Assembly: GCA_009785595.1 (NCBI GenBank)
Contig: WQVZ01000014.1
Location: 1 to 34,472, forward strand
From: Defluviitaleaceae bacterium
Lineage (GTDB): Bacteria > Bacillota > Clostridia > Lachnospirales > WRAX01
DNA length: 34,472 bases
Reading direction: 5' to 3'
Each line of letters begins with the position of its first letter. The stretch's first letter is position 1. Positions 3,693 to 34,196 of this stretch are shown piece after piece. A program made the position numbers and the translations under genes. The notes beneath the pieces are model-generated. The model was given only the letters and a program-made list of their open reading frames with translations. It did no database searches and was not told where the DNA came from.

Positions 3693-4190
3693 TCATCGTA
3701 GGGGCGACCTGTGGTCGCCCGGTATATCCCGCCGCCCAGCTTTGGCAATAACCATGCAAAACAAAGATGCTACGCCGAATGTCGTGCCTATGACAAACAC
3801 CATACCCGATTCTATTGGCATAATAGTTTTAGTCATAGTGTTTTGTGGATTATTAACATCAACCAACATCACGCTTGAAGAAGTTGGCCAGACGCGTCCG
3901 CATCTCATAATATCTGTAAAACGAGGTCTGTGACAACTCTCATAAGGCACTACGTAAAGTTGACCACTAACTTCAATTTCGATCATAGGGAACATTGAGC
4001 GAATATGGTCACCGTAGCCCTGCACCTCAACAAAATTACGCCTTATGTAGGCATCTCTTGCCATAAGAGGTGCAGCAAATACTATGATGATCACCGCCAA
4101 AACCCCAAATATAATAGCCCGCCCCTTAGCCGCTGCAAAATCCGCCGTCCAAGGTGTGCGTGATAATGGTTCAACAGGTTGCCATGTCAT
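3693..4190 (-). CDS. DUF3592-like small membrane protein A
   Basis: The product has 165 residues: a cytoplasmic head, a membrane segment at about 25-42, an external region of about 85 residues ending in LVDVNNPQN, and a second membrane segment at about 127-148. This topology and the DVN.PQ motif resemble DUF3592 proteins; that family call is my inference. It is a clear paralogue of the protein at 6313-6777 (both share EPLSRTPWTADFAAAKGRA) and more distantly of that at 4354-4704. GGAGG lies 11 bases before ATG 4190; GTG at 4202 is too close to it. The last residues (GDHRSPLR) and the TGA stop are encoded by a family 1 repeat. Inverted ATCGTAGGGG ends bracket the gene (3695 and 4245). Confidence 0.72.
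   Translation of the reverse strand: MTWQPVEPLSRTPWTADFAAAKGRAIIFGVLAVIIIVFAAPLMARDAYIRRNFVEVQGYGDHIRSMFPMIEIEVSGQLYVVPYESCHRPRFTDIMRCGRVWPTSSSVMLVDVNNPQNTMTKTIMPIESGMVFVIGTTFGVASLFCMVIAKAGRRDIPGDHRSPLR
3695..3720 (+). repeat. Family 1 repeat, ACC variant, inside the 3' end of gene A
   Basis: ATCGTAGGGG end plus hairpin GGGCG-ACC-TGT-GGT-CGCCC. On the minus strand it codes GDHRSPLR and the TGA stop of the DUF3592-like gene A. An inverted end is at 4236-4245. Confidence 0.85.
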
Positions 4191-22683: not shown

Positions 22684-22712
22684 ATTATAGCACACGACAA
22701 AGCCATTGTCGA
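22684..22712 (-). promoter_or_regulatory. Promoter of transketolase
   Basis: On the minus strand TCGACA (22712-22707) and a perfect TATAAT (22689-22684) are separated by 17 bases, 35 bases before the start codon. The hairpin array at 22732-22833 lies upstream of this promoter, so it belongs to the 3' side of the DUF445 transcript and not to the tkt message. Confidence 0.6.
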
Positions 22713-22731
22713 TTGTATATTCTCTTGCGAA

Positions 22732-22833
22732 CACGGAGCGTTAACGCTCCGTGGGTCTTACGCCGCGTAACGCGGCGTTTCTGCACGCGGCGTTTACGAA
22801 GCGTGGGAAATGACGTTGCGTCAACGCAACGTC
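22732..22833. repeat. Modular ACG-NNN-CGT hairpin array, locus 1
   Basis: Four palindromes in a row share one frame, ACG-NNN-CGT, a 1-2 base loop, then ACG-N'N'N'-CGT. Triplet GAG is at 22732-22753, CCG at 22760-22778 and TTG at 22812-22833. A damaged CTT module lies at 22784-22805: its right arm is ACG-AAG-CGT but its left arm reads CGG. It fills the gap between the DUF445 stop and the tkt promoter. No T-run follows, so these are not ordinary terminators. Three of the four modules recur at 33452-33524. Confidence 0.85.
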
Positions 22834-22845
22834 GTAGCGGAAAAT

Positions 22846-24063
22846 TTACATTCCTACCAGGTTAATCGCCATAGGCAAAAAACCTATTGCAAAACCTAAC
22901 AGGCCACCAAGAAGTGCTATCCACCGCAATTGCTTGCCCACAACGGACAACACCAGCTTTTCGGCCTCTTTGGTGTCCAGTGCGTTTATTTTCTCCTCCA
23001 CAATTTCTGCAATGTTCATGGGCCCCACAATGTATTCGGCAGCCTTTTGGGCCAAAATTGCAGTAAGCTTGCGGGCTGCCGCGCCTATGTGGGTTTTGCA
23101 GTCCGGCAGGGCGGTAAAAATTTGACTGGGGGCAATGGCGAGCAGGTTGCTTGCTGTTCTTTGAGCCAAATTTGCTTGATTTATCTGCTCTCTAAGCCAG
23201 GAAAAAGCCGCGGCCACATGCTCTTTTTTCAAGCTATTTTGCCCAAAATTAATCATAATTTCAAGCCATTTTTCTCTCAATTCTTTTTCGCCAAATTCAT
23301 CTACAAATACGCACAGTTTCTCTAACAGTATAGCTTGGCTTTCCTCATTATCCAAATATTCCAGCAGACCTTCTGCTATGCTGTTGTATATCTTGTCAGA
23401 ATTAACAAAAAGACTCATCAGACCTGTGGCATTTTCCTTGACAATTTTGGCCACTACTTGGCGCAGGGCGGCATCCGCGCGAGGGTCGGCCAAAAGGCCG
23501 CGCACCGCCGGGCCAAGACGGTGTATATTATTGGCCGCAGCTGATTTTATAATAGCTGCAGCTTTGCTGGGCACATGGTTTTTTATCAAAAAATCCATGG
23601 TTTGCCGGGCAAAATCCTCGCTTTGCAGATGTATCACGGCTTTGTCTGCGGCCAAAGATATTATGTTGTGCAGTTCTTTGTTGTGTAACAGCCAATTAAA
23701 AGCCCTTTCCATATCATCCTGCCGCAGCCAACCCGCCGCCATTTCTCCCACTGTTTTGTGGCTTGCGGCGGTTTTCTCCACAAAATCCTCCGCCATGGCG
23801 GCAACGGTGTCCACTATTTTGGAATTTGCTGCCGCATCCATCAATGTTTCACGAGTAAGCACATTGGCCCCAAAGGTTTCGCCGATTTTGTGGGCCAGTT
23901 GGCGGCGTTCTTTGGGGATAAGTCCGGGTGTAAAGGGCAGGCGCAGGCCAAAAAGCCGCTTTTCAGTGTGTGGGCGAAAAAGCATGGCAATGGCCAGCAG
24001 ATTGGTGGAATAGCCAATAGCTGCGCCGAGTACTGGGATTATTAGCATTGATAAAAATTCCAT
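22846..24063 (-). CDS. DUF445 family membrane protein (YheB-like)
   Basis: The 405-residue protein has one membrane segment at each end (about 3-25 and 385-403) and a long helical middle. The DUF445 opening GYSTNLLAIAMLFRP is at 17-31 and PFTPGLIPKERR at 43-54. The C-terminal LLGGLLGFAIGFLP is a second typical block. Function is not known; B. subtilis YheB is the nearest named relative I can recall. Its ATG shares one base with the rex stop codon (TAATG), and the GGGGGG run in rex can serve as ribosome binding site, so it is translated together with rex. Confidence 0.88.
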   Translation of the reverse strand: MEFLSMLIIPVLGAAIGYSTNLLAIAMLFRPHTEKRLFGLRLPFTPGLIPKERRQLAHKIGETFGANVLTRETLMDAAANSKIVDTVAAMAEDFVEKTAASHKTVGEMAAGWLRQDDMERAFNWLLHNKELHNIISLAADKAVIHLQSEDFARQTMDFLIKNHVPSKAAAIIKSAAANNIHRLGPAVRGLLADPRADAALRQVVAKIVKENATGLMSLFVNSDKIYNSIAEGLLEYLDNEESQAILLEKLCVFVDEFGEKELREKWLEIMINFGQNSLKKEHVAAAFSWLREQINQANLAQRTASNLLAIAPSQIFTALPDCKTHIGAAARKLTAILAQKAAEYIVGPMNIAEIVEEKINALDTKEAEKLVLSVVGKQLRWIALLGGLLGFAIGFLPMAINLVGM

Positions 24064-24710
24064 TATCCCCCCACCCGCTGCAATATTTCGTCATGGTTTA
24101 TGCGGTATGATAGGGTCATAAGACTGTCGGTAAGGCGCACATTTTCCACGGTAATGTGGGCCGGTACCTTTATGTCGCTGTTAGAGAAATTCCATATGCC
24201 TTTAATGTTTGATGCCGCCAGGGTTTTGGCAATGCCCGGGGCAGCACTGGCAGGTGTGGTCAAGACAACTATATCCACGTGGTTTGCTGCCAAAAAACTT
24301 TCAAGGTTGGTAGCAGCAAACACTTCCACTCCGCTTACTTTTGTGCCAATAATAGCGGGATTTGTGTCAAACAAAGCCACAAAATTAAAACCACGCTTGG
24401 CAAAATTAGGGTAATTTACCAGGGTTTGACCAAAATTGCCAGCCCCAATAAGTGCCAAATTATATACCTTGTCCAGCCCTAATATGCTTTTAATCTCGTT
24501 GTACAGCAGTTCTACATTATAGCCATAACCCTGCTGGCCAAAAGAGCCAAAATTGTTTAAGTCCTGCCGTATTTGGCTGGCGGTGATGCCCATGCGGTCG
24601 GATAGCTCTTTAGACGATATACGGGCGATGTCTTTGTCCAAAAGATCCCCTAAATACCTGTAATATCTGGGCAGACGCTTTATGACGGCTATGGATATTT
24701 TGTCGCTCAT
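24063..24710 (-). CDS. rex: Redox-sensing transcriptional repressor Rex
   Basis: Rex senses the NADH/NAD+ ratio and represses fermentation and respiration genes. The 215-residue protein has the winged helix VIKRLPRYYRYL (9-20) with the recognition region GITASQIRQDLNNFG (41-55), and a Rossmann domain with GAGNFG at 89-94. The C-terminal domain-swapping helix is present. ATG at 24710 has GGAGG seven bases upstream; an in-frame start at 24728 is less likely. A strong promoter precedes it, with an imperfect Rex-like site over the start of transcription. Confidence 0.95.
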   Translation of the reverse strand: MSDKISIAVIKRLPRYYRYLGDLLDKDIARISSKELSDRMGITASQIRQDLNNFGSFGQQGYGYNVELLYNEIKSILGLDKVYNLALIGAGNFGQTLVNYPNFAKRGFNFVALFDTNPAIIGTKVSGVEVFAATNLESFLAANHVDIVVLTTPASAAPGIAKTLAASNIKGIWNFSNSDIKVPAHITVENVRLTDSLMTLSYRINHDEILQRVGG

Positions 24711-24740
24711 AACTCTCCCTCCTGTCATGTGTTCGATTGT

Positions 24741-24779
24741 TTGTTAAATATTATACCAAGTTGTCCGGGTTTTTGTCAA
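24741..24779 (-). promoter_or_regulatory. Promoter of rex with imperfect Rex-operator-like site
   Basis: On the minus strand TTGACA (24779-24774), an 18-base spacer and TATAAT (24755-24750). The segment 24759-24741 reads TTGGTATAATATTTAACAA. It has TTG and CAA ends as in the Rex consensus (TTGTTAA, four bases, TTAACAA) but is one base longer and poor in the left half. Autoregulation is therefore possible but unproven. Confidence 0.55.
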
Positions 24780-24789
24780 AGGTTTTTGT

Positions 24790-24815
24790 GGGCGACCGAG
24801 GATGGACGCCCCTAC
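24790..24815 (-). repeat. Family 1 repeat, damaged copy
   Basis: Inverted orientation, ending CGCCCCTAC. The inner stem is disrupted (GACCGAGGATGGAC). It directly abuts the -35 box of the ABC-F promoter. Confidence 0.6.
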
Positions 24816-24844
24816 TTGATTTTGCCGCGGCATTGCTGTATACT
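24816..24844 (+). promoter_or_regulatory. Promoter of the ABC-F gene
   Basis: TTGATT (24816-24821), 17 bases and TATACT (24839-24844), about 20 bases before the ATG. The predicted leader is only about 13 bases, which fits the weak ribosome binding site. A damaged family 1 repeat ends directly before the -35 box. Confidence 0.55.
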
Positions 24845-24863
24845 AATTTCTGGTGATATTTTT

Positions 24864-26759
24864 ATGATTATTTCTTGCAGGGACATACAAAAATCCTTTG
24901 GGGCCGACGTGGTCCTTAAAAACGTGTCCTTTGGTGTGGACGAAAAAGAAAAAGCGGCCCTTGTGGGTGTAAACGGCGCGGGCAAAACCACGCTGTTTAA
25001 AATTATTTTGGGCCAGCTGGCCGCTGATGGCGGCGAAATCTCCATCAAAAAAGGCGCGCAAATAGGCTATTTGGCCCAAAATATGGACTTAAACATCACA
25101 AATACCATATACGAAGAATTGCTGTCGGTTTTTGACCATTTGGCGGCCATGGAAGAAGAAATACGAACCATGGAGGGCCAGATGGCGGGGCTTGATGACA
25201 CCGAGCTTGCCCGCCTTATGGAAAGATACGCAAAACTGACACATGAGTTTGAAAGCCGTCGGGGTTACGAATATAAAAGCCGCGTGCGTGGCGTGGCTTC
25301 TGGTTTGGGCTTTAGCGAGACAGAGCATGCTCTGGCCATAGGTCAGCTTTCCGGCGGGCAAAAAACCCGGGTGTCTTTGGGCAAGCTGCTGCTACGAGAG
25401 CCCGACCTGCTGTTGCTGGACGAGCCCACAAACCACCTGGACATTGCGGCCATAACCTGGCTGGAGGATTATTTTTTACGGGAATATGAGAAGGCTGTGG
25501 TTATCATAAGTCACGACCGCTATTTTTTGGACAAAGTTGCCAAAAAGGTGATAGAAATTGAGCACGGCACGGCCAAAACATACGGCGGCAATTACAGCTA
25601 CTTTGTGGACAAAAAAGCGGCGGATTTTGAAATTGCCATGCACCAGTACGTAAGCCAGCAAAAAGAGATAAAGCGGCAGGAGGAAAGCATTGCACTGCTA
25701 CGGTCTTTTAACCGCGAAAAATCCGTGCGCCGGGCCAGAAGCAAAGAAAAACAGCTGGCCAAAATAGAGCGTGTGGACAAACCCCAAAACGCCCCGGAAA
25801 ATATGCGCCTGGCCCTGACACCCCGCATATCCAGCGGCAACGATGTGCTAACCATACGCGGCGGCAAAAAGACCTTTGGGGATTTTGTGCTGTTTAGCGG
25901 CGTAAACATGGAGATAAAAAAAGGCGAAAAAGTGGCCCTGATAGGGGAAAACGGCGTGGGCAAGACGACACTGTTTAATATGATACGCTATGGAGACCCC
26001 GCGGCGGTGCTGGGCACCAATGTGCGCATAGGATATTATGACCAGGAACTTAAATTTTCCGACATGGCAAAGACTATTTTCCAGGAAATTTCCGACACAT
26101 ATCCCCGCATGAAAAATTTGGAGATACGTAATGCCCTGGCGGCCTTTCTCTTTATGGGGGACGATATTTTAAAACCTCTGTCGGCCTTGTCAGGCGGCGA
26201 GAAAGGGCGCGTAGCCCTGTGCAAACTGATGCTGTCCGATGTAAATTTTTTGATGCTGGATGAACCCACAAACCACCTTGACCTATTTTCGAAAGAAATA
26301 CTGGAAAATGCCCTGATAAGTTACGAAGGCACGGCCCTATATATCAGTCACGACCGCTACTTCATCAACAACACCGCGGAGAAAATATATGAACTACAAC
26401 CGGGCGGCAGCGGACTGTTTTTGGGTAATTACGATTATTATGTAGACAAAAAGGCGGAAATGCAAGGAAACGGTGAGGTGGCAAGGGCTGAAAAAAACGC
26501 CAGCGGAGCCAAAGAGGAATGGCTGGAGAAAAAAGAAGAGGCCGCGCGGGCGCGTAAGCATAAGGCGCGCATAGAGCGGCTGGAGGCGGATATAGAAAAA
26601 ACCGAGGCAGCTATTTTTGCGGCGGATGAAGAGCTGGCTCGGGATGAGGTGGCTACCGATGCCGTGCGCGCCCAAGAGGTGTACTTAATGCGAGCCGGGT
26701 TTGAGGAGAAACTCGGGGTGTTGCTGGAGGAGTGGGAAGCGGTTAGTGCAGGGGAGTAG
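24864..26759 (+). CDS. ABC-F family ATP-binding protein (YdiF-like)
   Basis: ABC-F proteins are soluble twin-ATPase factors that bind the ribosomal E site; some give antibiotic resistance, others aid translation. The 631-residue protein has Walker A GVNGAGKTT (35-43), signature LSGGQKTRVS (162-171) and Walker B LLLLDEPTNHLD (182-193) in the first domain. The second has GENGVGKTT (361-369), LSGGEKGRV (442-450) and DEPTNHLD (466-473). The inter-domain linker is basic and helical, and a charged coiled coil ends the protein (about 540-625), as in YdiF/Uup-like members. ATG at 24864 begins the first ATPase domain. The longer open frame from 24729 only reads promoter and repeat sequence. Confidence 0.93.
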   Translation: MIISCRDIQKSFGADVVLKNVSFGVDEKEKAALVGVNGAGKTTLFKIILGQLAADGGEISIKKGAQIGYLAQNMDLNITNTIYEELLSVFDHLAAMEEEIRTMEGQMAGLDDTELARLMERYAKLTHEFESRRGYEYKSRVRGVASGLGFSETEHALAIGQLSGGQKTRVSLGKLLLREPDLLLLDEPTNHLDIAAITWLEDYFLREYEKAVVIISHDRYFLDKVAKKVIEIEHGTAKTYGGNYSYFVDKKAADFEIAMHQYVSQQKEIKRQEESIALLRSFNREKSVRRARSKEKQLAKIERVDKPQNAPENMRLALTPRISSGNDVLTIRGGKKTFGDFVLFSGVNMEIKKGEKVALIGENGVGKTTLFNMIRYGDPAAVLGTNVRIGYYDQELKFSDMAKTIFQEISDTYPRMKNLEIRNALAAFLFMGDDILKPLSALSGGEKGRVALCKLMLSDVNFLMLDEPTNHLDLFSKEILENALISYEGTALYISHDRYFINNTAEKIYELQPGGSGLFLGNYDYYVDKKAEMQGNGEVARAEKNASGAKEEWLEKKEEAARARKHKARIERLEADIEKTEAAIFAADEELARDEVATDAVRAQEVYLMRAGFEEKLGVLLEEWEAVSAGE

Positions 26760-26802
26760 GTTGACCCGTGTGAGAAGTAACGATGGATGATTATGGCTTT
26801 TC

Positions 26803-26825
26803 GGGGACGCACATTGTGCGTCCCC
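26803..26825 (+). terminator. Terminator-like hairpin after the ABC-F gene
   Basis: Perfect palindrome of GGGGACGCACA and TGTGCGTCCCC around one T, followed by ATATTTTGG. It lies 44 bases past the ABC-F stop. The T-run is short. Confidence 0.6.
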
Positions 26826-26867
26826 ATATTTTGGAACTTTTTGTATGGATAGGCGTGTGGTTTGCTA

Positions 26868-26896
26868 TTGCAGACAGGCAATTATTATTGTATAAT
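26868..26896 (+). promoter_or_regulatory. Promoter of the subtilase gene
   Basis: TTGCAG (26868-26873), 17 bases and a perfect TATAAT (26891-26896). Transcription would start near 26903, giving a leader of about 184 bases. Confidence 0.6.
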
Positions 26897-26902
26897 TGTG
26901 AT

Positions 26903-27086
26903 ATTCTTGAATTATTTTCCACATAAAGTGTCCGCGTGCCTTAGATGTTACATGTTTCGGTGCTTTTTGGTGGGAACGGCGAGAGGGAAGGAGGCACAAA
27001 AAACCTGCTAAATTTGTCCGACAAAGGGCTTGCTGGCGATGTAGGCACCAGCAGCCCAAAACCAGTGAAACGAAAGGAGATTTTGT
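26903..27086 (+). promoter_or_regulatory. Long structured leader of the subtilase gene
   Basis: The leader can form a stem between GTGCCTT (about 26937) and AAGGAGGCAC (about 26988-26997), and a strong hairpin GGGCTTGCTGG / CCAGCAGCCC at 27026-27056 with one bulged base. The ribosome binding site AAAGGAG follows about 20 bases later. I compared it with the riboswitch classes I know (c-di-GMP, c-di-AMP, cobalamin, glycine, SAM, TPP, ZTP) and found no match. Confidence 0.35.
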
Positions 27087-30000
27087 ATGAAGACGAAATT
27101 GCTTCCAGGTAATAACAAAGGCATGTTTAAGTTTATGAGAAAATCACTCGTGTGCTTGCTGGCTTTTGTAATTGCAATTGGCCCGCTGTCAGCTGTGACT
27201 CTGGCTGAAGAGTATAATCCGGCGGCCACTGTTCTTTCTGCGGAAAGACAGGAAATTTTTGAAGAAATACAGTTAGAACAGCTTAACCACGGCCTTGTTG
27301 GCTTTGAGGGCGCAAATGCCCTGCCAAATGATGATACACCCGTAAGCGTGTTTGTGTTCTTTAATCACGGCCCGGCGGCTGTGCAGGTTGTAGAAGCACA
27401 GGTAGCAGGCCGCCGCATGGCTCAGTCTATGGCGGAGCAAATTGTAGAATACGAGCACGCAACATTCCAGCAAGAGCTGGCCGGTCTTTTTGCCATTACA
27501 CCTTTTGGCATGGACGACAGAACTTATTCGGTGGATTTTGAATATCGCCATGCTTTAAACGGCGTAGCCATGACCCTTCCCGCCAATATGGTGGAAGCGG
27601 TGCTGGATATTTCCGTTGTTAGAGCAATTTATCCTGTTGCGTATGTAGAGGCACCCGAACCTGTGATTTTTCCTGTGGCAACGGATGCCGCAAGAGACCC
27701 ACAAGGTATGCAGCAGGGGCGTCACAGAATGAATGTTCCTGAATTGCACAGCAGAGGATATACTGGCGAAGGTGTGCTTATAGCCGTAATAGACTCAGGT
27801 ATCGACTGGATGCACCCGGCGTTTAGAGGCAGCTTCCCCACCGCCCAGTATATGTATGAAAGAGGGCTGGAGCTTGACCAAAGCGAACTTATTAACTTTG
27901 GCACTGCCGCTGACCCCGACTGGCGTTTTGTAGGCCGCGACTTTATCCGCTTGTGGCCAGGCCAAGCTTGGCGCGGCAACCCAACAACCAGACCAGCGGG
28001 CCAGCCCGGCCATGATCCCATGGAAGCTGCACCGTTTAACTTCCCGGGTAATGCGCAAGCGGCCGCCGCAGGCTGGACAAGCCACGGTACACACGTATCC
28101 GGCACCATTGTTGGTCGTGATGTTGCGGCCCATGGCAACACAGATAATAACTACGACGTATCCATCCTGGGCGTAGCTCCCGGCGCACTGGCCATACATT
28201 ACCGCGCACTGTGGGGCAGCACGCCAAATACTGTTATCACTGCCGCTTTTGAGCGTGCCGTGCTTGACGGTGCAGATGTTGTTAATATGTCCCTTGGCGG
28301 CGGCGTGGCAAGTGCCGTTGATGTACAGGGCATAGCCATAAACAATTTAATGCTGGCTGACCCTTATCTTGTATTTGTAATTTCTGCCGGCAACAACGGC
28401 CCTAATTACCGTACAAGCGGCAACCCAAGTGGTGCTACCATGGCTATCAGCGTTTCTGCTTTAAAAGAACCCCAAGACTTTGGTCTTGAAATGCGTTGGC
28501 CAAGCCCAACAGGTGTTGGCCGCACATCTTTCATGCTTCCTAATGTGGCATGGTATCTTGACCAGCTTCCAAATGGCAATTACATATTTGACATTGACAG
28601 CATAACCACCAGAGCAGATGGCACAATGACCGTATTTGCCATGCCTGTTACCCCTGGCAGCCCTGTTGGCGCGGGCCAAAACGCAACCACCGCACCGCCT
28701 GTTGGTGCCGGAACCGCCAACGACTTTGCAGAGCTTGAAAGAATACACGGCAGAGAAGCACTGGAAGGCCATTTTGTGCTTGTGCGCCGCGGCTATACTT
28801 TCTCTGACATCACCTTACACGCCAACAGGCTTGGTCTTGGCGGCGTTATACAAATTAACACCATCCAGCAACCACCTGCCGCCGGCGGCGTTAGTGGTGC
28901 CTTGATGTTAAGTATGTTCTATACCGAAGGTTTTGAGCTTGCGCAATGGCTTAATCTTAACCAAGACCCGGCAGACCGTTGGGGTACAATTTGGTTCTCT
29001 GATACCCTTGGAGAGCTTGGCGACCTTCATTTGCAAGGCTTTTCTTCTCGCGGCCCGGTACTTGGCAGCTTAGAAATTACCCCGGACGTTGGCGCACATG
29101 GCGTACACGTTTGGTCTTCTATGCCAAGATGGAGCCTGGATCTACCTTGGCAAACCGATACAGTGCCATGGCAAGAGCATTGGAGAAATGACGACAACTG
29201 GATTACCGCGTATTGGTTTATGAGCGGCACATCTATGTCCGGACCTCACGTTGCCGGCGGCGTTGCCCTTATGGTACAGTATAGCCGCGAAAACGGCGGC
29301 CAGTGGGAAAGCACAGAAATTAAAGCCCGTATTGTAAACACCGCTATACCTGTTACATACCAAAGCGATATTATACCGGAGCATACACCCGTACGCGGCG
29401 TATTTAACGGCTCCAGACAAATGGACGTTTGGGCAGCTGTACAAGCCACCACCGTTGTTTCTGTTGAATATTCAAGAGTAACAACAATACCCGGTCGTTC
29501 CTTTGGCGCACAGCCACTTGTCACCACAACAAAAGGCTCCTTCAGTTTTGGTGGCCTTGGTGATGGTCAATCCAACAGCCTTACGGCAATTATCAACAGC
29601 CAAGAAGGCGGCGTATACACAATTACTCACGAATTTATTCTTGATGGCAGATTGTCTCAAGAGGGCGCGACCCTTGCACTTAGCAGAAATTCTGTTACAG
29701 TTGCACCGGGTGCTTCCGAGACCTTTGTAGCAACCCTTACAATGCCTGCTGTGGCTGTACCTGCAGGACATTACGAAGGTTATATAACAGTAACCAAAGG
29801 CGAAGCTGTTGTGGCAAGGCTTCCGTTTGCCGCCGTGGGTATCACCGTATCCCCGCCGGTATTTGACGGCAGCGTATTCCTTTACAGCTCTGTTGTATCC
29901 GGCGATTCCCTGTTCCCGGTCGGCAACGCTATCAGCCCATTGGCCAGCCAGCTTGGCATCTTCTTTACGCCAAATGACGGTTTCTACTTTGATATGTTCC

Positions 30001-31568
30001 TTTACAGAGTAGACGGCGAAGACCTTATCCCTGTAGGCCCCGGCGGCGATAATTGGCTGGGCTCACGCCAGGCTCCATTGATAGGCCACAGAGACGGCTC
30101 TAACATAGGCGGCCCAATGCGCGGCCAACAGCACCGCGCCATGATATTGGATATATATCCTCTTGGCCTGGCAGAAGGCGAATATACCCTTCGTCTGGAT
30201 GTTCACCGCTCAACCTGGACGGGCTACACAATTATCAACGACAACTGGATTCAAGCAGAAACCATATATCTCCCATTCTGGGTAGACAACACCCCGCCTG
30301 TTCTGCAAGACCTTGACATCCAAGGCATTAACCTTGGCAATATCAATCTGCTTGACTTTGACGGCGAAACCGTAACGGTAATGCCAACTGACAGAACAGA
30401 CAATGAAATAGTAATCACCGGTAATGTATTTGACGCATGGACAGACGAAATGATGGGCGAAGATGTCTTTGGCATCTGGCGTAATGCGGAAGCCGGCATG
30501 GACAACGTAGCTGTATTTGTCCTTTTGGGCGAAAACACACCAGCCAACCGCCCTGTACGTGCAGAACTGGATGAAGACGGCAACTTTGCTGTCACCATCG
30601 AGGTAGACGAAGAAGCGGATACCTTCGACATAACAATTTGGGCTGTTGACGGCTGGTCTGTGCTGCCTAATGTGGATGGTTTCCTCCATGCAGGCGGCCC
30701 TGGGCTTCACCCCAATTGGGCTTCCCAAGCTGGTGTTATGGCTGTGCTTAGAACCCTTAACCACAGAGACCACTTTGCTCTTCCATTCGGTCTTATTGGT
30801 GCCGATGCGGCCCTCAATACCGACTTGCATCAAGGCAGATGGTACTGGCAAAGTGCCGCAATTGGTGCCAGAATGGGCGAACATGTTTGGAGCGGTCTTA
30901 ATGTAACCGAATTTAACGTGAGCATCGTTGAAGAATTCCCAACCTTCACACTTAACATCTTTAACAACGGCCATTCCAATAACGCATCACTGGCTACTCT
31001 GGGTGTTATCCGCATGTGGACACAGCTTAACGGCCAAAACGCCCTTGTGCCTTATGCCGGATTAGAAATAACAGCAGAATTCCCCAATGGTCAATGTGCT
31101 ATGCATGTTATAAACATTAACCGCCCATGGAACAACCAAGGTTTTGTAAACTTTATTGATGCAGACAAAACCGTTAACTGGCAGCGCATATACCTTACAG
31201 CCACCCTTTTTGGCCAAACCGTAGATGCTGTCCTTATAAACGACTTGTATGTTACAAGAACCCTGGGTTTCCAAGCCTTTAACAACGGTAACGACAACCA
31301 CGCAGGTCTTGCGGGCACCATCCGTATATGGACGCAAATAAACGGCGTAAACACCCTTATCCCATATGCAGATATTACAGTAACGGCCACCCATCTTAAC
31401 GGAGAATGTGCCATGGAATTTGTGCGCATTAACCGCCCGTGGAACAACCAGGCTTATGTTAATTTGTTTGATGTAACCAAAACCGATGCCGACTGGCAAT
31501 ATATCAACTTTGCCGTGGAACTTAACGGCCAGGTTGCGGAACTTCTGCTTATTAACAACCTGTACTAG
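27087..31568 (+). CDS. Secreted subtilisin-family (S8) protease with tandem C-terminal domains
   Basis: A 1493-residue exported protease. A signal peptide ends near residue 40 (LSAVTLAEE), and an inhibitor-type propeptide of about 130-150 residues follows. The catalytic triad is Asp236 (AVIDSGID), His333 (SHGTHVSG) and Ser716 (GTSMSGPHVAG), with oxyanion Asn436 (SAGNNGP). The long gap between Asn436 and Ser716 holds a PA-type insert (about 550-625), as in lactocepin and Vpr-like enzymes. Fn3-like beta domains follow (about 800-1190). Two tandem copies of a domain of about 100 residues end the protein (1287-1388 and 1394-1493). There is no LPXTG-type signal or membrane anchor. AAAGGAG lies seven bases before the ATG. 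Confidence 0.93.
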   Translation: MKTKLLPGNNKGMFKFMRKSLVCLLAFVIAIGPLSAVTLAEEYNPAATVLSAERQEIFEEIQLEQLNHGLVGFEGANALPNDDTPVSVFVFFNHGPAAVQVVEAQVAGRRMAQSMAEQIVEYEHATFQQELAGLFAITPFGMDDRTYSVDFEYRHALNGVAMTLPANMVEAVLDISVVRAIYPVAYVEAPEPVIFPVATDAARDPQGMQQGRHRMNVPELHSRGYTGEGVLIAVIDSGIDWMHPAFRGSFPTAQYMYERGLELDQSELINFGTAADPDWRFVGRDFIRLWPGQAWRGNPTTRPAGQPGHDPMEAAPFNFPGNAQAAAAGWTSHGTHVSGTIVGRDVAAHGNTDNNYDVSILGVAPGALAIHYRALWGSTPNTVITAAFERAVLDGADVVNMSLGGGVASAVDVQGIAINNLMLADPYLVFVISAGNNGPNYRTSGNPSGATMAISVSALKEPQDFGLEMRWPSPTGVGRTSFMLPNVAWYLDQLPNGNYIFDIDSITTRADGTMTVFAMPVTPGSPVGAGQNATTAPPVGAGTANDFAELERIHGREALEGHFVLVRRGYTFSDITLHANRLGLGGVIQINTIQQPPAAGGVSGALMLSMFYTEGFELAQWLNLNQDPADRWGTIWFSDTLGELGDLHLQGFSSRGPVLGSLEITPDVGAHGVHVWSSMPRWSLDLPWQTDTVPWQEHWRNDDNWITAYWFMSGTSMSGPHVAGGVALMVQYSRENGGQWESTEIKARIVNTAIPVTYQSDIIPEHTPVRGVFNGSRQMDVWAAVQATTVVSVEYSRVTTIPGRSFGAQPLVTTTKGSFSFGGLGDGQSNSLTAIINSQEGGVYTITHEFILDGRLSQEGATLALSRNSVTVAPGASETFVATLTMPAVAVPAGHYEGYITVTKGEAVVARLPFAAVGITVSPPVFDGSVFLYSSVVSGDSLFPVGNAISPLASQLGIFFTPNDGFYFDMFLYRVDGEDLIPVGPGGDNWLGSRQAPLIGHRDGSNIGGPMRGQQHRAMILDIYPLGLAEGEYTLRLDVHRSTWTGYTIINDNWIQAETIYLPFWVDNTPPVLQDLDIQGINLGNINLLDFDGETVTVMPTDRTDNEIVITGNVFDAWTDEMMGEDVFGIWRNAEAGMDNVAVFVLLGENTPANRPVRAELDEDGNFAVTIEVDEEADTFDITIWAVDGWSVLPNVDGFLHAGGPGLHPNWASQAGVMAVLRTLNHRDHFALPFGLIGADAALNTDLHQGRWYWQSAAIGARMGEHVWSGLNVTEFNVSIVEEFPTFTLNIFNNGHSNNASLATLGVIRMWTQLNGQNALVPYAGLEITAEFPNGQCAMHVININRPWNNQGFVNFIDADKTVNWQRIYLTATLFGQTVDAVLINDLYVTRTLGFQAFNNGNDNHAGLAGTIRIWTQINGVNTLIPYADITVTATHLNGECAMEFVRINRPWNNQAYVNLFDVTKTDADWQYINFAVELNGQVAELLLINNLY
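30945..31565 (+). repeat. Tandem coding repeat at the end of the subtilase
   Basis: Two copies of a module of about 100 residues. Shared blocks are FNNG, IR.WTQ.NG.N.L.PYA, NG.CAM, INRPWNNQ, VN..D..KT, WQ.I and LIN.LY. Each has exactly one Cys. The second copy ends the protein. Identity is moderate at protein level and lower in DNA, so the duplication is not recent. Confidence 0.85.
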
Positions 31569-31607
31569 TGTGCGGCTTGTCGTAACACCATTTATTAAGT
31601 AACACGA

Positions 31608-31657
31608 CCCGCCTTGCGACCAAGGGATTTTAAAAATCTGGTTGCAAGGCGGGTTTT
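31608..31657 (+). terminator. Rho-independent terminator of the subtilase gene
   Basis: Stem CCCGCCTTGCGACC (31608-31621) with GGTTGCAAGGCGGG (31640-31653), one G-T pair, followed by TTTTAT. It lies 39 bases after the stop. Confidence 0.85.
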
Positions 31658-31670
31658 ATACTTCGGGCTA

Positions 31671-31699
31671 TTGCTTGACTGCCATTTCCGTGATATAAT
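31671..31699 (+). promoter_or_regulatory. Promoter of the YhaM-like gene
   Basis: TTGCTT (31671-31676), 17 bases and a perfect TATAAT (31694-31699), about 38 bases before the start codon and just after the subtilase terminator. Confidence 0.6.
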
Positions 31700-31737
31700 T
31701 GTGGCATAATTGGCCTTGGCCTGGAATGGAGCAAATT

Positions 31738-32679
31738 ATGAGGTATATAGAGGATTTTAAAGAAGGGGAAAACATCGTCGCCCACTATTTATGCAAGAAA
31801 AAGGACGTGATGAAGACCAAAAGCGGCAAAAACTATATGTCTATGATATTGGCGGACAGGACAGGTACGGCCGTGGCTAAGGCCTGGACGCTGAATAACG
31901 ATATACAAAGCTTTGATGCCGGAGATTTTATCAAGATAGAAGCCACGGTGGTGACGTATCTGGACGAGATGCAGCTTAATGTGCGCAAAATACGCAAAAG
32001 CCAGACGGGAGAGTATTTGCCCGCGGATTATATACCTACCACCGACCAAGACGTGGGGGCAATATATGCCGCCGTGTGCGGCCTGATAGATTCTTTGGAA
32101 AATCCTCACTTAAAAGAGATGATGACTAATATTTTTGTGGATGACAAAGAAATAAGCGGGGCGTTTTTGCGCCATTCTGCTGCAAAAAATATGCACCACA
32201 GCTATATGGGCGGCCTGTGCGAACATACCCTTAATGTGGCGCAAATATGCGAATTTTTAGCCCCGCGATATAAATTTGTAAACCGGGATGTTTTAATATC
32301 CGCGGCACTTTTGCACGACATCGGCAAAATTTATGAGCTTTCGGATTTTCCCGAAAACGACTATACAGACACCGGCCAGCTTTTGGGCCACATCACCATC
32401 ACCAGCGAGCTTATAGCCGCCCGGGCCGCGGCTGTGTCGGGTTTTCCGCCTGTGCTGAAAAACCTGTTGCAGCATTGCATACTGTCCCACCACGGCAGAC
32501 ACGAATATGGCTCACCCATATTACCAAAAACCATAGAAGCCATGATTTTAAGCTATGCGGATATTACCGACGCCCATATCAAGATGTTTGAGGAAGCTCT
32601 GGAAAAAGGACCGGCTCAGGCGGATTGGGCGGGATATAACCGGGTGTTGGCGCGGGATATACGTAAGTCTAATTTTTAG
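31738..32679 (+). CDS. yhaM: 3'-5' exoribonuclease YhaM family protein
   Basis: YhaM degrades RNA (and single-stranded DNA) from the 3' end with a metal-dependent HD domain. The 313-residue length equals that of the family. An OB-fold with YMSMILADRTGT (33-44) is followed by the HD domain: HHSYMGGLCEHT (153-164), LLHDIGK (191-197, His193-Asp194) and HHGRHEYGSP (251-260). ATG at 31738 starts the typical MRYIEDF and has TGGAG about six bases upstream. Its stop lies one base from the stop of the convergent nuclease gene. Confidence 0.92.
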   Translation: MRYIEDFKEGENIVAHYLCKKKDVMKTKSGKNYMSMILADRTGTAVAKAWTLNNDIQSFDAGDFIKIEATVVTYLDEMQLNVRKIRKSQTGEYLPADYIPTTDQDVGAIYAAVCGLIDSLENPHLKEMMTNIFVDDKEISGAFLRHSAAKNMHHSYMGGLCEHTLNVAQICEFLAPRYKFVNRDVLISAALLHDIGKIYELSDFPENDYTDTGQLLGHITITSELIAARAAAVSGFPPVLKNLLQHCILSHHGRHEYGSPILPKTIEAMILSYADITDAHIKMFEEALEKGPAQADWAGYNRVLARDIRKSNF

Positions 32680-32680
32680 G

Positions 32681-33136
32681 TTATGATATTTCGCAAACCG
32701 TCCCCCGCGCCACACAATGGCGGCAATGGACAAAAGACGGGTTGGCATGGCCTTCCCCAGTTTTAAGCATATTGCGCATATCTGCCAACACAGCATAAAG
32801 CTCCCTGCGGCGTTTTGTGCTGTTTTTTATTACAAACATGGCGTTTTGGTAGCGCAAATATCCCCGCTTTGGCCTTTTGCCCATAGCGTCCTCTATAATA
32901 ACAAAATAGGCCACCAACTGCATTATATCGCCATGGCGGGGTTGGCCTGCCACTCGGCCGCTTTTAAGCTCCATAGGTGCCGGGCGGCCTGTTATGCGGC
33001 TTCTAAAGATAAAATCCGGCTTGCCACGCAAATCATGTCTTGTGGAGCGCAATAGTTTGCCTCCCTTTGCATCGCCATAAATAAGGCGATGCAGACGGGG
33101 TCTGTCTCGTAGAGTTACTTCTTTTATGCCGCGCAT
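32681..33136 (-). CDS. Cas4-like PD-(D/E)XK nuclease, C-terminal part
   Basis: A 151-residue product with the catalytic core of Cas4/RecB-type nucleases: Asp41 (GKPDFIF), Glu56 and Lys58 (MELKSG), the QhxxY motif Q73-Y77 (QLVAY), and three cysteines at the end (C138, C141, C148 in HCRHCVARGTVC) as in iron-sulfur Cas4/AddB proteins. The fourth cysteine of such a cluster is expected near the N-terminus and is found in the neighbouring frame (33139-33432). ATG at 33136 is two bases past that gene's stop, with no good ribosome binding site, so restart after termination is likely if it is expressed. No CRISPR array or other cas gene is present. Read as one half of a split gene. Confidence 0.75.
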   Translation of the reverse strand: MRGIKEVTLRDRPRLHRLIYGDAKGGKLLRSTRHDLRGKPDFIFRSRITGRPAPMELKSGRVAGQPRHGDIMQLVAYFVIIEDAMGKRPKRGYLRYQNAMFVIKNSTKRRRELYAVLADMRNMLKTGEGHANPSFVHCRHCVARGTVCEIS

Positions 33137-33138
33137 AT

Positions 33139-33432
33139 TCACGTCATCACCCCACAAAGCAGCAATATGTACAAAAATATACCTGTCACAACTGCTATGC
33201 GCAGTAGCCGCAAGGCCAGCCTAAATCGGCGGCGGCGTTCAAAACGGGCATGAAAAACCAGCCCCTTTTGTAAGGGGCTGTCGGTTGTGGGCGTTATGCC
33301 TATTTCATCCATATGTATTTTTTTTCGCCGCCTAAGTTCTGCCATGCCGTACTTGTGCTCGTAATACCATTGGTAATTGCAGTACAGATAGCGGTTTACC
33401 TCACTGGCGGAAATGGTCTGGTCGTTCTTCAT
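33139..33432 (-). CDS. Cas4-like protein, N-terminal part with membrane segment
   Basis: A 97-residue product. The start ISASEVNRYLYCNYQWYYEHKYG has the Cas4-type opening with Cys18. KGLVFHARFERRRR (56-69) corresponds to the conserved His region. A membrane segment (about 75-94) directly follows, and then the TGA. The catalytic residues lie in the next frame (-1) downstream. The pair either represents one gene broken by a frameshift or a two-chain membrane-tethered nuclease. GGAG lies eight bases before the ATG. Confidence 0.72.
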   Translation of the reverse strand: MKNDQTISASEVNRYLYCNYQWYYEHKYGMAELRRRKKIHMDEIGITPTTDSPLQKGLVFHARFERRRRFRLALRLLRIAVVTGIFLYILLLCGVMT

Positions 33433-33451
33433 CGCGCTCGCTCCGCATACG

Positions 33452-33524
33452 ACGCCGCGTTACGCGGCGTAGAACCCACGCTTCGTAAACGAAGCGTGAA
33501 AATCACGGAGCGTAAACGCTCCGT
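33452..33524. repeat. Modular ACG-NNN-CGT hairpin array, locus 2
   Basis: Three palindromes of the frame seen at 22732-22833: triplet CCG (33452-33470), CTT (33477-33498, intact) and GAG (33505-33524). The linker between CCG and CTT (AGAACCC) is nearly the complement of the linker beside CCG at locus 1, where the neighbour is GAG. The array fills the gap between the AlkD-like gene and the Cas4-like gene. Confidence 0.85.
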
Positions 33525-33533
33525 AGCATCATC

Positions 33534-34196
33534 TTAACATCTCACAGCCCGCCGCTTAAAGCCCAATCGGCCCTTGTCCGCCGCTGTTTGTATAGCTTTT
33601 GCAGCAGGCAAGCCAATTGCGACCTTTGCTGCCTCTTTATGTAGCGGCAGATAGGACACACCCACCGCTGCTATAAAATCACTTATAACCCGTTGCAAAT
33701 GTGGGGTTTCGCCACTTATGCGGGTCGTGGCCATATCCAGCAGAGTTGCCATCTTATCTCGGCAAAAATAGTCATCCCGACGCCAGCCTAAAAGCCATTG
33801 ATATGCCGATCACCCCGCCGAGCGATAAAGCTCTTCGCCATGCTCAAGCCAGCTGTCGGCCACATCCATGGCGCATGAGGCCTCGGACAAAGTAACAGCC
33901 ACCACATAGTCCGACAGCATAGGGAAATACGCCGCTTTCATCCAACGGTCAAAATCTGCCGGTGTCATGGTATCCGGGTCGGCTATCATTCCGGCAAAAT
34001 ACATTACATCATAATTGCCGGTGGCGTACAGCTCCTCTGCAAGGACATGGTTTATGCCAATGCGCTTAAACAGCGGCTTCATGGCCCCGGTGGCCACGCC
34101 AAACAGCGGCTCTTTAGCGCCCCTGCCCATATACTGCTTTTTTGTTCTTTCGCTGGCAAGGCCCTCCAGCTCCCGCATAACTTCTTGCGCCGTCAT
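33534..34196 (-). pseudogene. AlkD-like DNA alkylation repair protein, broken by a stop codon
   Basis: The family excises or handles alkylated bases with a HEAT-like fold. Residues 1-128 match the family (EVMRELEGLASERTKKQY, GVATGAMKPLFKRIG, ATGNYDVMYFAGMIADP). A TGA at 33812-33810 interrupts the frame after SAG, where relatives have SAGW; a single base change from TGG explains it. The same frame continues to 33534 and ends with the expected GRLGFKRRAVRC. A stretch of about 12 residues before LPAAKAIQ (the usual VDxGxTxCKVP block) seems to be missing. Total length would be 220 residues. Its ATG overlaps the upstream stop (TAATG). Confidence 0.8.

Follow-up and report, generated by a model that had tools for sequence, protein, structure and literature searches.

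The window, by which we mean the whole stretch of 34,472 nucleotides from a Defluviitaleaceae bacterium that was analysed here, harbours two arrays of tandem hairpins, and copies of the same element are found throughout the genome. With moderate confidence, we regard these arrays as REP/BIME-like, Y1-linked and probably non-autonomous mobile ends of a tandem-hairpin element of the IS200 type. Each hairpin follows the frame ACG-NNN-CGT, a short loop and again ACG-NNN-CGT, in which the clamps enclose a core of three matched pairs, and the hairpins are named here after the core triplet.

Hairpin arrays in the window and in its genome

Direct reading of the window gives the hairpin order GAG, CCG, hybrid and TTG for locus 1 (22733-22832) and CCG, CTT and GAG for locus 2 (33452-33524; Table 1). 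On rereading the coordinates, both loci, the shared frame and the damaged third hairpin of locus 1 are as a preliminary description of this DNA had given them. In the damaged hairpin, the left arm is ACGCGGCGT and the right arm is ACGAAGCGT.

Table 1. Coordinates of the array parts in the window and of a further hairpin family in the same genome
Feature	Position	Strand	Remarks
Whole element, array 1	22708..22856	-	covariance model R1, 77 bits, E 7e-30
Flank motif TTGCGAAC	22725..22732	+	points toward array 1
GAG hairpin, array 1	22733..22752	.	ACGGAGCGT-TA-ACGCTCCGT
Linker GGGTCTT, array 1	22753..22759	.	minus strand AAGACCC, the linker preceding the terminal GAG hairpin
CCG hairpin, array 1	22760..22778	.	
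Hybrid hairpin, array 1	22785..22804	.	right arm of CCG, then right arm of CTT; 7/9 pairs
TTG hairpin, array 1	22813..22832	.	
Whole element, array 2	33428..33549	+	covariance model R1, 104 bits, E 2e-41
CCG hairpin, array 2	33452..33470	.	
Linker AGAACCC, array 2	33471..33477	.	complement GGGTTCT
CTT hairpin, array 2	33478..33497	.	
GAG hairpin, array 2	33505..33524	.	
TTTTGCTTCGCAAAA / TTTTGCGAAGCAAAA family	L236:9451-9524		
TTTTGCTTCGCAAAA / TTTTGCGAAGCAAAA family	L237:3987-4026		
TTTTGCTTCGCAAAA / TTTTGCGAAGCAAAA family	L249:5150-5188		

The window's own genome (G000; 1.69 Mb in 92 contigs, 91% complete) was scanned for ACG-NNN-CGT, 0-6 nt, ACG-NNN-CGT, with the reversed pattern as control, and this yielded 51 matches versus a single one for the control, a frequency far beyond chance. 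When the array loci were scanned with relaxed criteria, 54 hairpins emerged at 19 places, and about 17 of these places are convincing intergenic loci, rather than the two known before. All nine pairs are intact in 49 of the 54 hairpins. The five imperfect ones comprise two with single transitions and three hybrids between neighbours, namely the one in the window (22785-22804) and those at C19:13320 and C19:29810. GAG is the most frequent core (16 hairpins), followed by CTT (8), TTG (7), CTG (6), CCG (3) and seven rarer ones, and the centre of the hairpin is T(N)1-3A nearly throughout. The constancy of the clamps that had been described holds as a rule, but in a few hairpins the covarying changes reach the clamps as well (ACGCTTTGT/ACAAAGCGT, ACAATCCGT/ACGGATTGT and CCGCAGCGT/ACGCTGCGG). 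The covariance model R1 recovers every array locus of this genome, with E values down to 6e-45.

The arrays are intergenic, with the exception of an isolated hairpin inside a gene (C1:11951), which is probably unrelated to them, and they lie mostly between co-directional or convergent genes. The sites include grpE-dnaK, atpH-atpA, the region downstream of lepA, a position beside frr and the region downstream of ftsZ. At atpH-atpA, the gap of 20-50 nt is free of an array in G009 and G003, which belong to distant genera and are not strains of the same organism, and it holds a 76-bp array in G000; since the gap lacks the array in these other genera, we read the array as a probable addition in the lineage of G000. 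Strong G+C hairpins near gene ends could also be intrinsic terminators or bidirectional terminator arrays. However, T-runs are absent after the hairpins, as had been noted earlier, both at the two window loci and beside the other arrays of the genome. Moreover, each site carries three to five hairpins, and arrays are found inside grpE-dnaK and the atp operon. Lacking T-tracts and with sites inside operons, the terminator reading was rejected as highly improbable.

Covariation and architecture of the whole element

The element spans about 75-130 bp and consists of three to five tandem hairpins of 20 nt that are separated by linkers of 7-8 nt. When 11 elements are oriented with GAG at the end, they align from end to end (alignment A1) in the order hairpin 1, CAACCCC-like linker, hairpin 2, AAAAACC-like linker and hairpin 3, and the last hairpin is GAG in 10 of them. 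From this alignment we conclude that an element is inherited together with its linkers and its order, the cores changing in place. A linker next to the CCG hairpin had been considered its companion, but in the alignment the linkers track the position in the element and not the CCG hairpin. The proposed exchange of modules fares no better, as order and linkers are largely conserved and the arms mostly change in place; with whole elements homologous, linkers fixed and GAG usually last, free shuffling of modules is not required. From the idea that the damage at locus 1 arose by exchange between modules, the occurrence of neighbour hybrids at three sites stands, whereas free exchange is unsupported.

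Standard pairs occupy 99.2% of the 264 pair cells of the alignment. Changes on both sides of a pair occur in 27 cells, one-sided changes in none and broken pairs in two, where the cells are not independent events, and 11 pairs have changed on both sides. The triplets thus covary in the further copies as they had been said to do in the first two arrays. None of 500 shuffles had as many two-sided changes or as high a covariation score, and the signal was destroyed when the partner was slid by 1-3 columns. Identical hairpins never adjoin in the arrays of G000 (0 of 34 neighbour pairs versus 4.6 expected, P=0.005). Three short motifs are enriched in the 35-nt flanks of these arrays, namely GTTCG, TGCG and GCGA, each in the direction of the array. 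An outer stem that would enclose the array (GGTTCGACTGCGA ... TCGCAG) was suggested by eye and rejected, as pairing within a locus was no better than pairing between loci (P 0.93).

The clamps are constrained in sequence, and the core is constrained in pairing only. A folded single strand, be it ssDNA or RNA, must matter, because a protein that binds the duplex would not need matched cores. The same consideration bears on the proposal that the arrays are DNA sites for a nucleoid or replication protein and palindromic by accident. This would suit the constant clamps, the constant T..A centre and the distance of about one helical turn from ACG to ACG, yet recognition of a duplex by the clamps does not demand complementary triplets, and the large majority of hairpins are perfect; we consider this proposal improbable.

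It is also conceivable, if doubtful, that the arrays act at the level of RNA, as structured spacers that are transcribed in operons and serve as mRNA stabilisers, processing sites or protein-binding sites, with selection acting on the RNA stems. The placement between co-directional or convergent genes, such as grpE-dnaK, atpH-atpA and after lepA, would agree with this, as would the A/C-rich linkers, which are unstructured in the common orientation, and the observation by inspection, which is not significant, that seven of nine clearly oriented elements follow the direction of transcription. On the other hand, none of the 264 cells is a G-U pair when read along the aligned strand, and two are A-C mismatches, unlike typical RNA helices. 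This absence of half-changed or G-U pairs speaks more for DNA, or for one arm being copied from its partner, than for an RNA helix that drifts through wobble pairs. In addition, outer flanks do not pair preferentially within a locus, the arrays are species-specific, and no curated Rfam family matches them.

We return to the reading as Y1-linked mobile ends. Each array would be one copy of a small palindromic element of intergenic regions, derived from the tandem-hairpin ends of an IS200-like (Y1) element, which would have spread as folded ssDNA read by a protein of the Y1 TnpA type. Such a protein may contact the constant clamps (ACG..CG and the T..A loop), and the three inner pairs would need complementarity only. 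The inner pairs could change on both arms through compensatory selection, or when replication slips within the hairpin and one arm serves as template for its partner, and identical neighbours may be avoided or lost through recombining. Recognition by a Y1 protein, the ssDNA substrate and the templating of arms are what we infer, as would be any present activity of the ACG arrays. Against this reading, the arrays resemble a single end and not two inverted ends, and they are devoid of the GTAG tag of REP sequences.

Tandem hairpins and Y1 proteins in the same genome and in relatives

The ACG set appears to be private to this organism: it is absent from the other genomes of the bacterial family, of which 15 were tested, and from an even sample of the order comprising 392 genomes, which gave one chance match that is not a hairpin. 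A triplet-free pattern of two hairpins gave 14 matches in GTDB r220 (85k species), all of them single and non-hairpin and thus chance, and likewise only chance matches in viral contigs. Matches of R1 in relatives, with E around 0.01, are mostly coding or chance. The exception, G011:C104, led to a hairpin family of the relatives, in which the motif [GCCGGGTAAACCCGGC]taaagtaa[CGACTACAAGTCG]...[CGGTTTGTAACCG]ttacttta[GCCGGGTTTACCCGGC] recurs in G011 and G014, which form one genus, and in G002 from another (28, 26 and 4 matches, respectively, with both strands counted). A search by the clamps only, which did not demand a matched core, found complementary cores in 61 of 61 hairpins of this family, with the cores varying among CC, TC, CA and CG. 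In G014, two hairpin ends bracket a 132-aa Y1 (IS200-like) protein, and likewise in G002; in both genomes, the hairpins that flank tnpA recur without it at other loci. Because the hairpins bracket tnpA and recur without it, the layout of constant clamp, matched core and tandem repetition can be assigned, in these relatives, to an IS200-type element, whose ends it forms, and to derivatives of that element without tnpA. The same layout around tnpA is found with other hairpins in G006 and G009, so that tandem-hairpin ends surround a Y1 tnpA in G000, G002, G006, G009 and G014, and in G088 four tandem hairpins lie next to a tnpA whose HUH site is intact. As a separate observation, a four-hairpin array upstream of an apparent tufA in G011 (L089/L152) lies inside a longer GC-rich stem (GGCGCTTT..AAAGCGCC), with a folding z-score of -5.2.

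The tnpA unit of G000 (C33:1914-2462) encodes a 128-aa Y1 protein and has three hairpins on each side of the gene. These hairpins (CCGGTT, CCGACT, TCGACT ...) belong to a CCGGTT/CGACT set and not to the ACG set. Ends like these also enclose a Nudix hydrolase gene (C33:15746-16340, L023:8746-9340) that is inserted between atpG and atpD, a junction that measures 28 nt in G009. Judged from sequence, ends of one kind thus carry either tnpA or the Nudix gene in G000, as an exchange of payload would produce. As the ends of both units are not ACG hairpins, the ACG arrays are tied to the Y1 protein by architecture only, and their descent from tandem-hairpin ends of the IS200 type may be proposed by analogy. 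A tnpA with ACG-type ends was not found in G000, nor in the other genomes searched.

The preliminary description had considered a reader protein of the kind that RAYT proteins are for REP sequences, and a linked gene for it. Y1 proteins do accompany analogous hairpins, in the relatives and with another set in G000, but none accompanies the ACG set, and both candidate genes of G000, the C33 tnpA and a RAYT-like gene (C61:4303-4857, L035:1303-1857), go with other hairpins. The RAYT-like gene, which matches NF047646 below the cut-off, sits between Mg-chelatase-like and DAHP-synthase-like genes. Its reading frame contains a hairpin, GGGCGGATTCTATATCCGCCC (VGADSISAR), of the type GGGCGG..CCGCCC, and as this different hairpin is the only one in it, the gene was rejected as direct partner of the ACG set. 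G000 contains further hairpins besides these. A third set stands on one side only beside recX (C4:5566-5626), and the TTTTGCTTCGCAAAA / TTTTGCGAAGCAAAA family forms tandem pairs with linkers of 5-6 nt (Table 1). Separate GTAG-tagged REP hairpins (GTAGGGGCGACC..GGTCGCCC) occur in the window at 3698, 6287 (minus) and 6318, and they probably explain the TTGRPY peptide that recurs in the ends of the window's open reading frames.

The state of the TnpA homologues is of importance for the question of activity. The metal site of TnpA is formed by a glutamine and two histidines (PMC6006769). The TnpA profile aligns across the HUH region of solved TnpA chains, and at the HUH position the homologues of the bacterial family read FVY, YVY, YVH, HVR or SVR; their Y---Q motif is also broken, with the glutamine missing. 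The HUH histidines and this glutamine are gone in every family member flanked by tandem hairpins (L034, L193, L194, L195 and L201), which makes present-day transposition by these homologues doubtful, and DHVHLL/DHIHLL and Y---Q are kept in G088, G046, G039 and G258. Apart from the one in G009, the tnpA frames of the family members are open, and a comparison of two G006 copies gave dN 0.13 and dS 0.46 (ratio 0.28). Open frames and this ratio, which comes from one pair and to which older selection could contribute, would fit selection on a binder free of catalysis, on what is thin evidence. A more far-reaching and rather speculative suggestion, to which we assign a low probability, is that Y1 transposase homologues without HUH and with their frames kept open bind dispersed tandem hairpin arrays, with one clamp per lineage, interchangeable matched cores and Nudix cargo.

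In the ACG arrays, constant clamps and freely changing matched cores separate the constraint on sequence from that on shape in a REP-like element whose hairpin sets are private to a genus or species. They allow a direct test of whether hairpin proteins read sequence or shape, and of how paired arms change. The HUH-less tnpA relatives and the copy with Nudix cargo offer a natural series from an insertion sequence to a possibly domesticated hairpin binder.

Comparison with known systems

Fungal mitochondrial double-hairpin elements are organellar pairs of hairpins that are mobile and whose stems change in a compensatory manner, and they resemble the ACG arrays by description. With the IS200/IS605 family, the likeness lies in the tandem hairpins of the relatives, which combine constant clamps with a matched variable core, bracket tnpA and recur without it. 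Non-autonomous members of this family share their ends with a tnpA copy, as the G014 and G002 families do; the ACG set, in contrast, has no such copy among the genomes searched, and the TnpA homologues of this bacterial family are without the HUH site. A typical IS200 gene has small subterminal hairpins on its flanks, and two to four in tandem on each side are not described there (PMC6006769).

Membership in the REP superfamilies was considered as well. No unpaired GTAG, nor a close variant of it, stands at the foot of the ACG stems, whose flanks and linkers are CAACCCC/AAAAACC-like. The CGTC superfamily is defined by a CGTC tag, A-T at the first two stem positions and a CCA tail (PMC3733652), whereas the ACG stems begin with A-C-G and the linkers have no constant CGTC or CCA tail. 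The arrays further differ from REP, BIME and REPIN sequences in that three to five hairpins of the same orientation with fixed linkers replace head-to-head pairs, no RAYT gene is flanked by ACG hairpins, and copies are few. Because the tests for tag and RAYT fail and no ACG-ended tnpA was found, we file the ACG arrays as a variant and not as a member of REP. In the broad sense of short, repeated, intergenic and clustered palindromes, they do belong with REP/BIME sequences, and they share with the REP/BIME/REPIN and RAYT systems the complementary changes in the stem and the preference for unlike neighbours that are known from REP families (PMC3733652, PMC3116915), lineage-specific alphabets (PMC3733652, PMC3116915, PMC8266576) and the suspected involvement of a protein of the Y1 family, some members of which read perfect palindromes (PMC8266576).
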